Source: Ruminococcus sp. (GTDB taxonomy: Bacteria > Bacillota > Clostridia > Oscillospirales > Ruminococcaceae). From it: a DNA stretch of 64,000 nt. A program made the position numbers and the translations under genes. This document shows, one piece after another, positions 23,461-46,249 of this stretch. Below the pieces are notes generated by a model. That model did not search any database and had not been told where the DNA came from. It saw nothing but the letters and a program-made list of their open reading frames with translations. The DNA lies in assembly GCA_017470905.1 (NCBI GenBank), contig JAFUXL010000031.1, positions 1 through 64,000 of the forward strand. The letters run 5' to 3'. Every line of letters starts with the position of its first letter. Within the stretch, counting starts at the first letter, position 1.

Positions 23461-23752
23461 AAGAGGAAAATTGCGCCCTTGACTTGAAAGTGAACGTAAC
23501 GCAGTGAAGTGAACGAAAAGTCAAGGTTTAAAAGGCGCAATTTGACGATTTTAAATAAGAGGAAATTTTCGCCCTTGCCGTATGAATGAACGAAGCGCAG
23601 CGCAGTGAATGAGTAGGCAAGCCCAAAGGGCGAAAATTGACGATTTTAAATAAGAGGAAATTTTCGCCCTTGCCGTATGAATGAACGAAGCGCAGCGCAG
23701 TAAATGAATAGGCAAGCCCAAAGGGAGAAAATTGACGATTTCAAATAGGAGG
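23461..23752 (+). repeat. PAL-A triple tandem array ending in the lepA ribosome site
   Basis: Three head-to-tail units (23461-23556, 23557-23651, 23652-23752). Copy 1 has arms AAATTGCGCC/GGCGCAATTT; copy 2 has AAATTTTCGCCC/GGGCGAAAATT, a matched change on both arms. Copy 3 keeps the copy-2 arms with one mismatch. The last unit ends GACGATTTCAAATAGGAGG, and that AGGAGG is the lepA Shine-Dalgarno. Confidence 0.9.
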
Positions 23753-23759
23753 TATTTTT

Positions 23760-25562
23760 TTGGCTAACGATAAAATCAGAAATTTCTGCATAATTGCACA
23801 CATAGACCACGGAAAATCAACCCTCGCCGACAGAATACTCGAAAAAACCGAGACTGTCGCCGTCCGTGACATGGAGGAACAGCTCCTCGACAATATGGAC
23901 ATAGAGCGTGAAAGAGGAATAACAATAAAGGCTCGTGCCGTCCGCCTTAAATATACCACAAAGGACGGAGAGGATTATATTTTTAATCTCATCGACACTC
24001 CCGGTCACGTTGACTTCAATTATGAGGTATCACGCTCCCTCGCCGCCTGTGAGGGCGCAATCCTCGTTGTGGACGCTTCTCAGGGAATTGAGGCGCAGAC
24101 CCTCGCAAACACATATCTTGCAATAGAACACGACCTCGAAGTCGTTCCCGTTGTAAATAAAATAGACCTGCCCTCTGCAGACCCCGAACGTGTATGCAAT
24201 GAAGTCGAAAACGTTATCGGCATACCTGCCATGGACGCTCCGAGAATATCCGCAAAAATGGGCATAAATATCGAGGAAGTCCTCGAAAAAATCGTCACGG
24301 ATATTCCGGCACCGCAGGGCGATACCAATAAGCCCCTCAAAGCCCTTATTTTCGACAGCTATTATGATTCCTACAAGGGAGTTATAATATACGTGAGAGT
24401 GAAAGAGGGGACTGTCAGGGTCGGCGACAATATCCGCCTTATGGCTACGGGTGCGGTTTTCACGGTAGTCGAAACAGGCTTCATGGACGCATCGTCCCTT
24501 GTGAACAAAGGCTCTCTCGAAGCAGGCGAAGTAGGCTATATCGCCGCGTCTATCAAATCCATAGGCGATACCCGTGTCGGCGATACCGTAACAAATGACG
24601 ATAACCCCTGTGATGAACCCCTCCCCGGCTACAGAAAGGTAAACCCTATGGTGTTTTCGGGAATATATCCCGCAGACGGCGCAAAATACGGAGATTTGCG
24701 TGAGGCTCTCGAAAAATTGCAGCTCAACGACGCATCGCTTTCCTTTGAGCCCGAAACATCCGTTGCGCTGGGATTTGGTTTCCGCTGCGGATTTCTCGGA
24801 CTTCTCCATATGGAAATAATTCAGGAAAGACTTGAGCGTGAATATAACCTCGATTTGATAACAACAGCCCCCTCGGTTATATATAAAGTTACCATGACAA
24901 ACGGCGATGTGCAGTATATAGACAATCCCACAAATTATCCCGACCCGGCACTGATAAGAACGGCGGAAGAACCGATTGTAAAGGCGAACATTCTATCACC
25001 GTCCGAATTTGTCGGAAATATTATGGAGCTTTGTCAGGACAGGAGAGGTGTTTTCAAGGATATGAAATACCTTGATGACACGAGAGTTGAACTGCACTAC
25101 GAACTCCCGCTCAATGAGATAGTGTATGATTTCTTTGATGTCCTCAAATCACGCACGAGGGGCTATGCCTCGTTCGATTATGAAATGCTCGGCTACACTC
25201 CGTCAAAGCTTGTAAAGCTTGATATTCTCCTCAACGGCGAAACGGTCGATGCATTGTCGTTTATAATCCATACGGACAAGGCTTACGGCAGAGCAAGAAA
25301 AATTGCCGAAAAATTAAAGGAAAATATCCCCCGTCAGCTCTTTGAGGTACCCATTCAGGCGGCTATAGGCGGCAAAATTATCGCCCGTGAAACCGTAAAG
25401 GCTATGCGCAAGGACGTTCTTGCAAAATGCTACGGCGGAGACATTACCCGTAAGAAAAAGCTCCTCGAAAAACAGAAAGAGGGCAAAAAGCGTATGCGTC
25501 AGTTAGGTACGGTCGAAGTACCGCAGGAGGCTTTCATGAGCGTCCTGAAACTGGACTCTTAA
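23760..25562 (+). CDS. lepA: Elongation factor 4 (LepA)
   Basis: A 600-residue translational GTPase that acts on stalled or mistranslocated ribosomes. The P-loop is AHIDHGKST, the G3 motif DTPGHVDF and the G4 motif NKIDL. The LepA-specific C-terminal domain ([35 protein letters not shown] end) is intact. The start is TTG at 23760, 7 nt after AGGAGG. That Shine-Dalgarno is contributed by the end of the PAL-A array. hemW lies 940 bp downstream with two small genes between. Confidence 0.97.
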
Positions 25563-25600
25563 TCAATTCATAATTCTTAATTCATAATTAAGAATTGGGA
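25562..25600. repeat. AT-D repeat after lepA
   Basis: AATTCATAATTCTTAATTCA followed by TAATTAAGAATT, self-complementary, beginning at the lepA stop codon. Confidence 0.55.
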
Positions 25601-25625
25601 ATTTTAAATTATCATTGATAAAAAG

Positions 25626-25697
25626 CAATGCCTCGCCACAGGCGGGGCAGACAAAATATAAAAATTTTGATTTGTTCAATTATGAATTATGCATTAA
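25626..25697 (+). repeat. hp-C repeat joined to AT-D repeat
   Basis: GCCTCGCCACAGGCGGGGC hairpin, ACAAAATATAAAAATTTTG block, then AATTATGAATTATGCATT. It ends in AAACAGGAGAG, the ribosome site of the next gene. Confidence 0.65.
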
Positions 25698-25715
25698 ACA
25701 GGAGAGTGTTTTTGA

Positions 25716-44895: not shown

Positions 44896-44897
44896 GA

Positions 44898-44924
44898 AAA
44901 TCCCCCGTCCGGAAACGGGGGATT
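44898..44924. terminator. Bidirectional terminator between the lipoprotein gene and dapL
   Basis: AAATCCCCCGTCCGGAAACGGGGGATTT, symmetrical, with A/T runs on both sides. Confidence 0.85.
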
Positions 44925-44930
44925 TCATGT

Positions 44931-46139
44931 TTATATGCTGTTTATAAGCTTCTCAAATCTGTTCATAGCCTCGATTGTTCTGTCTCTGTCGCCGAAAGCC
45001 GTAAGCCTGAACCAGCCCTCGCCGTTCTTTCCGAAACCTGCTCCGGGAGTGCCGACTACGGCTATTTCTTTGAGCATGAGGTCAAAAAATTCCCAGCTTC
45101 CCATATTGTTCGGACACTTGAACCAGATGTAGGGAGAGTTTATTCCGCCCGTGAACTTAACTCCGAGCTTTGTCATCGTATCCGAAATTATCCTTGCATT
45201 TTCCTGATAATAGGCAATATTCTCATGTATCTGCTTCTGTCCCTCATCTGTGAATACCGCGGCAGCCGCACACTGTACGGGATACGATACGCCGTTGAAC
45301 TTGCTGCCCTGTCGTCTGCCCCATATCTGTGAGAGAGAAACTTCACTGCCATCACCTGCCCTGACTTTAAGTGCATCGGGAATTACGGTATATCCGCATC
45401 TCATGCCCGTAAAACCTGCGGTTTTCGAGAGCGAACACATCTCTATGCATACTTCCTTTGCACCGTCAACGCAGAAAATGCTCCTCGGTACGTTTTCGTC
45501 CGTGATGAAAGCCTCGTATGCCGAGTCGTAGATGATAACGGCATTATTTTTCCTTGCGTAGTCTATCCAGATTTCAAGCTGATTTCTTGTATAGACCGAA
45601 CCTGTGGGGTTATTCGGGGAGCAGAGATAGATTATATCCGCATGGACGGAATAATCGGGCATAGCGGCAAAGCCGTTCTCCTCGTTTGAGTCGGCATAGA
45701 TAATCTTCCTGCCGCTCATGAGGTTCGAGTCAACATATACGGGGTATGCAGGGTCGGTGACGAGGATAATATTGTCATCGCCGAAAATATCCACAATATT
45801 TCCGCAGTCGGACTTTGCGCCGTCATTAATTCTTATTTCATCGGGGGACACGTCCGCACCGAGCTTTTTATAATAATCGGAAACGGCATTCTTGAGAAAA
45901 TCATATCCTGCGCCGCTGTCCTCATAGCCTTTGAAAGTCTCTTTAACGCCCATTTCATCGCAGCCCTTTTTCATTGCTTCAATGACAACAGGTGCAATCG
46001 GGAGAGTTACATCGCCTATACCCATGCGTATAATGTCCGCATCGGGGTTTTCGGCTCTGAAAGCGTTTATTTTCTTTGCAATATTTATAAACAGATAGTT
46101 TTTCTCAAGTCTGAGAAAATTTTCATTCAGTTTTGGCAT
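44931..46139 (-). CDS. dapL: LL-diaminopimelate aminotransferase
   Basis: A 402-residue class I/II PLP aminotransferase. The PLP lysine lies in SLSKTAGFTGMRCGY, and the CSPNNPTGSVY loop and N-terminal LEKNYLFINIAKKI segment match DapL. It converts tetrahydrodipicolinate to LL-2,6-diaminopimelate in one step, bypassing acylated intermediates in lysine and peptidoglycan synthesis. It is next to dapF, the following step. The ATG follows AAGGAGTTTGCCGT; the AAGGAG is at the end of the PAL-A unit. Confidence 0.93.
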   Translation of the reverse strand: MPKLNENFLRLEKNYLFINIAKKINAFRAENPDADIIRMGIGDVTLPIAPVVIEAMKKGCDEMGVKETFKGYEDSGAGYDFLKNAVSDYYKKLGADVSPDEIRINDGAKSDCGNIVDIFGDDNIILVTDPAYPVYVDSNLMSGRKIIYADSNEENGFAAMPDYSVHADIIYLCSPNNPTGSVYTRNQLEIWIDYARKNNAVIIYDSAYEAFITDENVPRSIFCVDGAKEVCIEMCSLSKTAGFTGMRCGYTVIPDALKVRAGDGSEVSLSQIWGRRQGSKFNGVSYPVQCAAAAVFTDEGQKQIHENIAYYQENARIISDTMTKLGVKFTGGINSPYIWFKCPNNMGSWEFFDLMLKEIAVVGTPGAGFGKNGEGWFRLTAFGDRDRTIEAMNRFEKLINSI

Positions 46140-46152
46140 ACGGCAAACTCCT

Positions 46153-46249
46153 TTTTAAAATCGTCAAATCTGTGCTTTTAATGCCTTGTACTTTCGTTCA
46201 CTTCATTTCATTCCGTTCACTTTCAGTACAAGAGCACAGATTTTCCTCC
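46153..46249 (-). repeat. PAL-A repeat between dapF and dapL
   Basis: Minus-strand unit with a distinct but matched stem: AAATCTGTGC/GCACAGATTT and TTGTACT/AGTACAA. It ends GACGATTTTAAAAAGGAG at the dapL ribosome site. Its first 52 bp are read as the last 16 codons and stop of dapF. Confidence 0.85.

Follow-up and report, generated by a model that had tools for sequence, protein, structure and literature searches.

PAL-A, a palindromic repeat of rumen Ruminococcus that lies directly upstream of Shine–Dalgarno sequences and is probably a mobile element

The stretch of DNA analysed here (the window: 64,000 nucleotides of contig JAFUXL010000031.1 from a Ruminococcus sp. genome, assembly GCA_017470905.1) carries a palindromic repeat, PAL-A, whose copies mostly stand directly upstream of the Shine–Dalgarno sequences (SDs) of genes. 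The repeat is real, its placement is strongly non-random, and it is apparently mobile. It is probably a non-autonomous palindromic element, similar to the repetitive extragenic palindromes (REPs), that inserts in one direction at the 5′ edge of SDs. We also lean, somewhat less firmly, towards a more specific picture, in which the element homes to the SD as its attachment site, settles just 5′ of it in one orientation with the translation signals intact, re-creates the target with its left end, stacks into arrays and enters phages. Support for the mobile-element reading comes from where and in which direction the copies lie, from SD sites of a sister species that have no element, from dissimilar copies at SDs occupied in both species, and from the copies carried by viral contigs.

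Results

Ten full PAL-A units were located at six loci of the window, eight of them 95–98 nt and two (37547 and 42870) 81 nt in length; the latter (37547-37627 and 42870-42950) are without part of the right arm. Five of the loci precede a gene, and at all five the last copy is directed towards that gene, with 10–13 nt between element and start codon; the sixth (26-217) runs off the contig end and is not scorable. The original prediction, of about ten copies of a unit of roughly 95 bp at six loci, adjoining an SD in constant orientation with a start codon close by, was thus borne out at every scorable locus; the span given with it, 23461-46249, covers five of the loci and omits the pair at 26-217. 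The 13-mer right end, GACGATTTTAAAT, occurs in the window in 8 exact copies, and in 14 when up to two mismatches are allowed, as compared with 4.81 expected from shuffles. The gene names derive from NCBIfam models, with lepA, dgt and dapL above the cut-offs and spoIIAA and cobA/cobO below the curated cut-offs of those models; dapF was also named by NCBIfam.

23461..23746, + strand: three tandem PAL-A units before lepA (23461-23556, 23557-23651, 23652-23746)
23747..23752, + strand: SD AGGAGG of lepA, adjoining the third unit; start codon TTG at 23760, distance 13 nt
29297..29392, − strand: single PAL-A unit before spoIIAA
29290..29296, − strand: SD AAAGGTG of spoIIAA; start codon ATG at 29284, distance 12 nt
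37547..37627, − strand: 81-nt short PAL-A unit before dgt
37541..37546, − strand: SD AGGGGG of dgt; start codon ATG at 37535, distance 11 nt
42773..42950, − strand: two tandem PAL-A units before a cobO/cobA-type gene (42870-42950, short form, and 42773-42869)
42767..42772, − strand: SD AGGTGA of the cobO/cobA-type gene; start codon ATG at 42762, distance 10 nt
46153..46250, − strand: single PAL-A unit between dapF and dapL
46148..46152, − strand: SD AGGAG of dapL; start codon ATG at 46139, distance 13 nt
26..217, − strand: two tandem PAL-A units (122-217, 26-121), then the start of a third, at the contig end; the downstream gene lies outside the assembly

A covariance model built from the ten window units was run on the own genome (G000; 2,035,711 bases in 32 contigs, 73.75% complete, the window being bases 1-64000 of its contig C28). 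At least 150 matches were obtained in these 2.04 Mb, ten of them the model's own training units, and GACGATTTTAAAT was present in 93 exact copies (49 on one strand and 44 on the other) as compared with 0 for the reversed control. The 150 matches form 93 same-strand arrays, namely 51 single, 31 double, 7 triple and 4 quadruple, so that 42 of the 93 hold several units; arrays are same-strand by definition, and opposite-strand neighbours fall outside this count. Eighty-five arrays were classed as PAL-A and eight as a related repeat, PAL-B.

The position of PAL-A was scored on 80 of the 85 arrays, the other five having less than 120 nt downstream; a positive required, within 60 nt, a start codon with an SD that opens an open reading frame (ORF) either 60 or more codons long or running off the stretch. 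Such an SD and start follow 69 of the 80 arrays, 61 of them at 10–15 nt, whereas none of 83 qualified in the antisense direction; when the SD requirement was dropped, the figures were 70/80 and 14/83. The genes downstream are of unrelated functions. The original prediction had proposed just such a survey, with orientation and distance tabulated, and it returned a strong excess of sense copies; random orientation and position, the refuting outcome set beforehand, were looked for genome-wide and not seen.

Among 125 genomes of the genus, G025 and G060 stand nearest by LepA (97% identity each), followed by eight more at 96%; by shared 60-mers, G025 corresponds to Ruminococcus sp. RGIG7051 from sheep rumen and G060 to Ruminococcus sp. 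UBA4383. With the covariance model at an E-value of 1e-6, 3 of 120 genus genomes were positive (G000, G025 and G060), as was 1 of 396 genomes of a family sample, this one being the own genome; these wide searches used strict filters, with 34 (genus) and 10 (family) candidates scored per genome, and may miss diverged copies. At an E-value of 1e-5, 149 matches were found in G025 and 99 in G060, with 150 scored in each. A pattern search with the exact tandem junction against 84,980 species genomes, which may exclude the own genome, returned 16 stretches, only in the UBA4383 and RGIG7051 assemblies. Three viral contigs carry the same exact junction, and one PAL-A unit compared with isolate phage and plasmid collections gave no match. 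Within the searches made, PAL-A copies were thus found only in a small rumen Ruminococcus clade and on three viral contigs. Outside the own genome, an SD and start follow 23 of 24 distinct arrays at G025 and G060 loci chosen by match score, 2 of 2 arrays on the viral contigs and 10 of 12 arrays at loci of named metagenome-assembled genomes, the last set overlapping the G025 and G060 genomes.

The anatomy of the unit was derived from 139 PAL-A units (the 150 matches minus 11 PAL-B). The unit opens on the top strand with an SD-like left end (AAGAGGAAA or CAGAGGAAA in most cases, the hexamer being mostly AAGAGG or CAGAGG), followed by an outer stem of 10–12 bp; inside this, an inner CTTG...CAAG stem encloses a TGAACG-rich core with AGTGAACGA, and the right end GACGATTTTAAAT, exact in 88 of the 139 units, abuts the target gene's own SD. 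A CGTC tag (GACG on the top strand) lies within the last 17 bases in 121/139 units, directly outside the outer stem. On the bottom strand, a C/T-rich target (CTCCT, for example) comes first, then ATTTAAAAT, the CGTC tag at the foot of the hairpin, the hairpin itself and finally the target-like 3′ end TTTCCTCTT. The termini beyond the stem are not complementary; the extreme ends thus lack the inverted repeats of classical miniature inverted-repeat transposable elements (MITEs) of the DDE-transposase kind.

Five units folded as RNA gave z-scores of −2.80 to −6.38. Stem pairing was counted in 126 units, 13 having no anchor. Stem pairs 1 and 2 are A-T in 104/126 and 105/126 units; pairs 3, 6, 7, 8 and 9 are of Watson–Crick type in 109, 108, 105, 105 and 105 of 126, as compared with shuffled means of 60.9, 76.1, 46.7, 56.7 and 55.4, a shuffling that ignores the relatedness of the copies. 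The ends of PAL-A are near-constant, and the sequence of the outer stem varies together with its pairing partner. A scan of the window against Rfam at gathering thresholds gave six matches, all to RNase P, T-box or tRNA and none at a PAL-A unit.

Occupied and empty sites were compared by searching G025 for the N-termini of 26 proteins encoded after elements and reading the DNA upstream. Twenty-four genes were resolved; of the other two, glnN matched a distant paralogue only and pncB was not found. Seven sites are occupied by PAL-A in G025 too (purM, argH, rpmE, rpiB, ilvH, ftsY and dapL). Fourteen genes keep the SD with no PAL-A directly before it (hisD, metG, upp, fhs, pyrG, purF, udk, dnaK, mreB, rimM, dgt, pflA, rpmF and gltX); among these, a remnant is possibly present at dgt, and upstream of gltX there is an oppositely oriented unit before the apparent SD and start of a divergent gene. 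The remaining three hold something else: a short PAL-B-like hairpin (lepA), PAL-B (spoIIAA) and a right-end remnant (secG).

With the array removed in silico, upp, dnaK, rimM, pflA and rpmF align with their element-free counterparts, and the junction falls on the 5′ edge of the SD; for four of them (upp, rpmF, dnaK and pflA) an SD of like kind stands at the same position in the element-free site. The SD is therefore the host gene's own and was there already; the suggestion that the unit supplies or carries the ribosome site is not supported in that form, although the left end of the unit is SD-like. Copies of the two species are 0.73–0.85 identical at six of the seven sites occupied in both, the average for random pairs being 0.759 and their 95th percentile 0.848 (at purM, G025 has two units by eye, of which the comparison used one). 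We read these unlike copies as the probable outcome of mostly independent targeting of the same SDs.

Within the own genome, mean identity between units is 0.785 within an array and 0.714 between arrays. Most arrays are mixtures of dissimilar units, the nearest relative lying in the same array for 31 of the 95 units of multi-unit arrays; pairs as much as 0.99 identical lie at separate loci, some at contig ends. In the 66 flanks counted to the left of a unit, a T-rich part gives way to an A-rich one, and the last base ahead of the left hexamer is C in 40% and T in 39%. Among sibling units, the three bases preceding the left AGG agree in 9/27 cases, or 31/81 at a looser cut, about as often as in all pairs (29%); these bases may therefore come from the target, and any duplication may be short.

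Several loci depart from the standard form. An extra TGATTTTAAAT-like right-end fragment follows the full units, before the SD or intergenic DNA, at L031, L046, L059, L090 and L108; these fragments are possibly footprints, shortened copies or products of decay. At L036, L056 and L064 a variant carries an inserted short hairpin (CCCCAAGGGGACTTCCTTCGGGCG-like) in its right part, ahead of the usual right end, and the L064 variant likewise precedes an SD.

PAL-B shares the core hairpin of PAL-A and has GGGGG/CCCCC outer arms and a ATTTTAAAT-like right end. Two units lie in the window, and others were found at L033, L047, L059, L070, L073, L081 and L088. An SD and start follow 3 of the 8 PAL-B arrays on the sense side and 1 of 8 on the antisense side. 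The window also contains 14 runs, of at least 21 bases, of AT-rich 7-mer tandem repeats (AATTATGAATTATGCATTATG-like); those at 25678, 28863, 56952 and 60412 end just ahead of an SD, and such runs often lie to the left of PAL-A units.

61222..61315, − strand: PAL-B unit, not before an SD; outer arms GGGGGAAAGCCGCC ... GGCGGCTCCCCC
38687..38775, + strand: second PAL-B unit, not before a gene start, from repeat search and pattern
25678, 27631, 33642, 42969, 49399, 56952, 60412, + strand: 7-mer runs
63891, 56411, 55846, 47136, 28863, 25569, 11273, − strand: 7-mer runs

Discussion

The position and one-way orientation of PAL-A, the empty sister sites, the unlike copies and the copies on viral contigs support one suggestion of the original prediction, a mobile element that inserts at the ribosome site. 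As to how it moves, the C/T-rich target, the CGTC at the hairpin foot and the target-like 3′ end of the bottom strand suggest cutting and joining of a single strand. PAL-A would then travel as a single strand in folded form, mobilized by an enzyme acting in trans, the weakest step of the proposal; this enzyme would cut next to a CTCCT-type motif at either end, as happens with REP or IS200/IS605 elements. Units would stack in tandem because each left end offers a new SD-like target, some tandem duplication would follow later, and insertion would be tolerated because SD and start remain intact.

Several observations weigh against this reading. Eleven of the 80 arrays miss the SD-plus-start rule; at two of them (L063 and the C32:67838 unit of L108) an SD and ATG are seen by eye with no qualifying ORF, and the other nine are exceptions or ambiguous. 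No insertion was seen within one species, and we infer mobility from three species-level genomes. If insertions were independent and reached a minority of genes, fewer shared sites than 7 of the 24 resolved genes would be expected, so that some sites may be hot spots or old insertions whose sequence has turned over. The copies at dapL, 0.95 and 0.93 identical between the two species, are clearly shared. The left and right junctions of an array resemble each other no more than shuffled pairs do (p 0.11; 66 of 85 arrays, 60 pairs), and a scan for target duplication on 67 of 85 arrays, 63 of them SD-anchored, gave a best z of 3.4 among 41 SD-anchored offsets and of 2.6 unanchored, a weak signal at most. 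No mobilising enzyme was found among the Y1 transposase, Y2 transposase and reverse transcriptase profiles: the Y1 profile PF01797 matched nothing in G025 (93% complete) or G060 (81%) and a fragment in G000, with 5 of 14 control genomes matching and the carrier assemblies incomplete; the Y2 profile PF04986, for IS91-type elements, matched 0 of 6 genomes, and no control genome either; the reverse transcriptase profile PF00078 matched 0 of 6 genomes including the three carriers, whose assemblies are incomplete, with 3 of 14 controls positive. Nor was an autonomous parent with the same ends present among the orphan ends of the fetched own-genome stretches, the window and the three viral contigs.

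Two features of the window touch on these points. A broken IS605-type element at about 8560-10000 (+ strand) consists of a Y1 transposase fragment (profile positions 69-121) followed by interrupted TnpB pieces that carry HTH_OrfB_IS605, OrfB_IS605 and Cas12f1-like domains. The dapF ORF (46198-47100, − strand) terminates within the PAL-A unit before dapL, the left 53 bases of the unit (46198-46250) providing its last codons and stop, and G025 reads with the same arrangement; the NCBIfam DapF match spans residues 1-276 of the 300-residue product. As judged from this overlap, the dapL copy may have been kept because its left part encodes the end of dapF.

Among other explanations, a cis-acting element, that is, a transcribed hairpin selected to protect the mRNA or to keep the SD open, would account for the constant distance and orientation, the compensatory changes in the stem and the conservation of the dapL copy across two species. 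In a folding test on 65 of the 69 loci, the predicted probability that the SD is unpaired was higher with the element than without (0.510 vs 0.453, n=65, p 0.019); a shuffled element, however, gave 0.481, which is not significantly different (p 0.106). Covarying stems are equally expected if movement requires the hairpin, and it is difficult to see a shared control in arrays of two to four units, in a family limited to few species, before genes unrelated in function of which 14 of the 24 resolved sisters do without. We regard this explanation as unlikely, and the translational control element suggested in the original prediction is not supported, in view of the unrelated genes, the differing occupancy in the sister and the small change in SD accessibility.

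Copies might alternatively spread through microhomology, the unit being SD-like at each end, by template switching from one SD to another during replication or repair, with no dedicated transposase. Left end and target are indeed both AGAGG/AGGAGG-like, right-end-only fragments lie before full units or SDs at several loci, the Y1 transposase is missing in two of three carriers and no reverse transcriptase was found in the six genomes. However, a homology of five or six bases that is common to most genes should move other sequences as well, the ends of PAL-A are very uniform, and the right-end fragments may be products of decay, since loss of the right side plus the SD would harm the gene; this route seems doubtful. 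Insertion at random followed by selection, with only the copies just before an SD surviving, would have in its favour that insertions within genes, promoters or the gap between SD and start are harmful. Nevertheless, placement at 10–15 nt in 61 of 69 cases, with none antisense, is too narrow for tolerance alone, because other intergenic space should also accept copies. PAL-B, its relative, shows no such placement, and the finding of dissimilar copies at one and the same SD in two species also speaks against this possibility, which we consider very improbable. In a rough check on whether SD-like motifs outside SDs are avoided, 13 of the 25 AGGAG motifs called non-coding lay before a called start, with a gene caller that missed genes, and nothing is concluded from them.

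Comparison with known elements

If PAL-A is indeed a mobile element homing to SDs, most genes would offer it a niche for insertion, the collection of its copies would be a natural experiment on what can stand directly upstream of an SD, and the family would be a lead to a recombination activity with SD specificity. To our knowledge, no bacterial element with the ribosome-binding site as its target has been described; a literature search for one found none, subscription papers being mostly outside its coverage.

The REPs with a GTAG tag, which are mobilized by REP-associated tyrosine transposases (RAYTs), and the IS200/IS605 insertion sequences move by a peel-and-paste mechanism and are hairpin-tagged, with asymmetric ends and no obvious target duplication. 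PAL-A resembles them in these respects. It differs in its ends, AAGAGGAAA and GACGATTTTAAAT, in having no GTAG tag and an SD-like target, and in its carriers, in two of three of which the Y1 transposase was not found.

The pneumococcal BOX, RUP and SPRITE, which are MITEs, are likewise short, non-coding and multi-copy, with variable presence and absence. Pneumococcal repeats and insertion sequences are over-represented between convergent genes (PMC3049150); PAL-A, in contrast, is placed at SDs, its ends beyond the stem are not inverted copies and it leaves no clean duplication.

A further likeness is to the CGTC-tagged REPs (Di Nocera et al. 2013, PMC3733652), palindromes with an unpaired CGTC at one foot of the stem, for which that study found no dedicated transposase. 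PAL-A shares with them the CGTC at the stem foot, A-T in the first two stem pairs, covarying stems and the lack of a known transposase. According to the same paper, however, CGTC-tagged REPs are 20–40 bp long, with stems of 8–9 bp and loops of 4–5 bp, are arranged mainly as head-to-head dimers with negligible head-to-tail ones, and lie predominantly downstream of coding regions, Firmicutes not being mentioned there; PAL-A units are 81–98 nt long, contain an inner hairpin, form head-to-tail tandems and lie directly upstream of SDs. Membership in the CGTC-tagged REPs was rejected because size, arrangement and position do not fit, and we file PAL-A as a REP/MITE-like palindromic element distinct from them. 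It also offers a CGTC-tagged palindrome, a class with no known transposase, in a setting where movement is testable.

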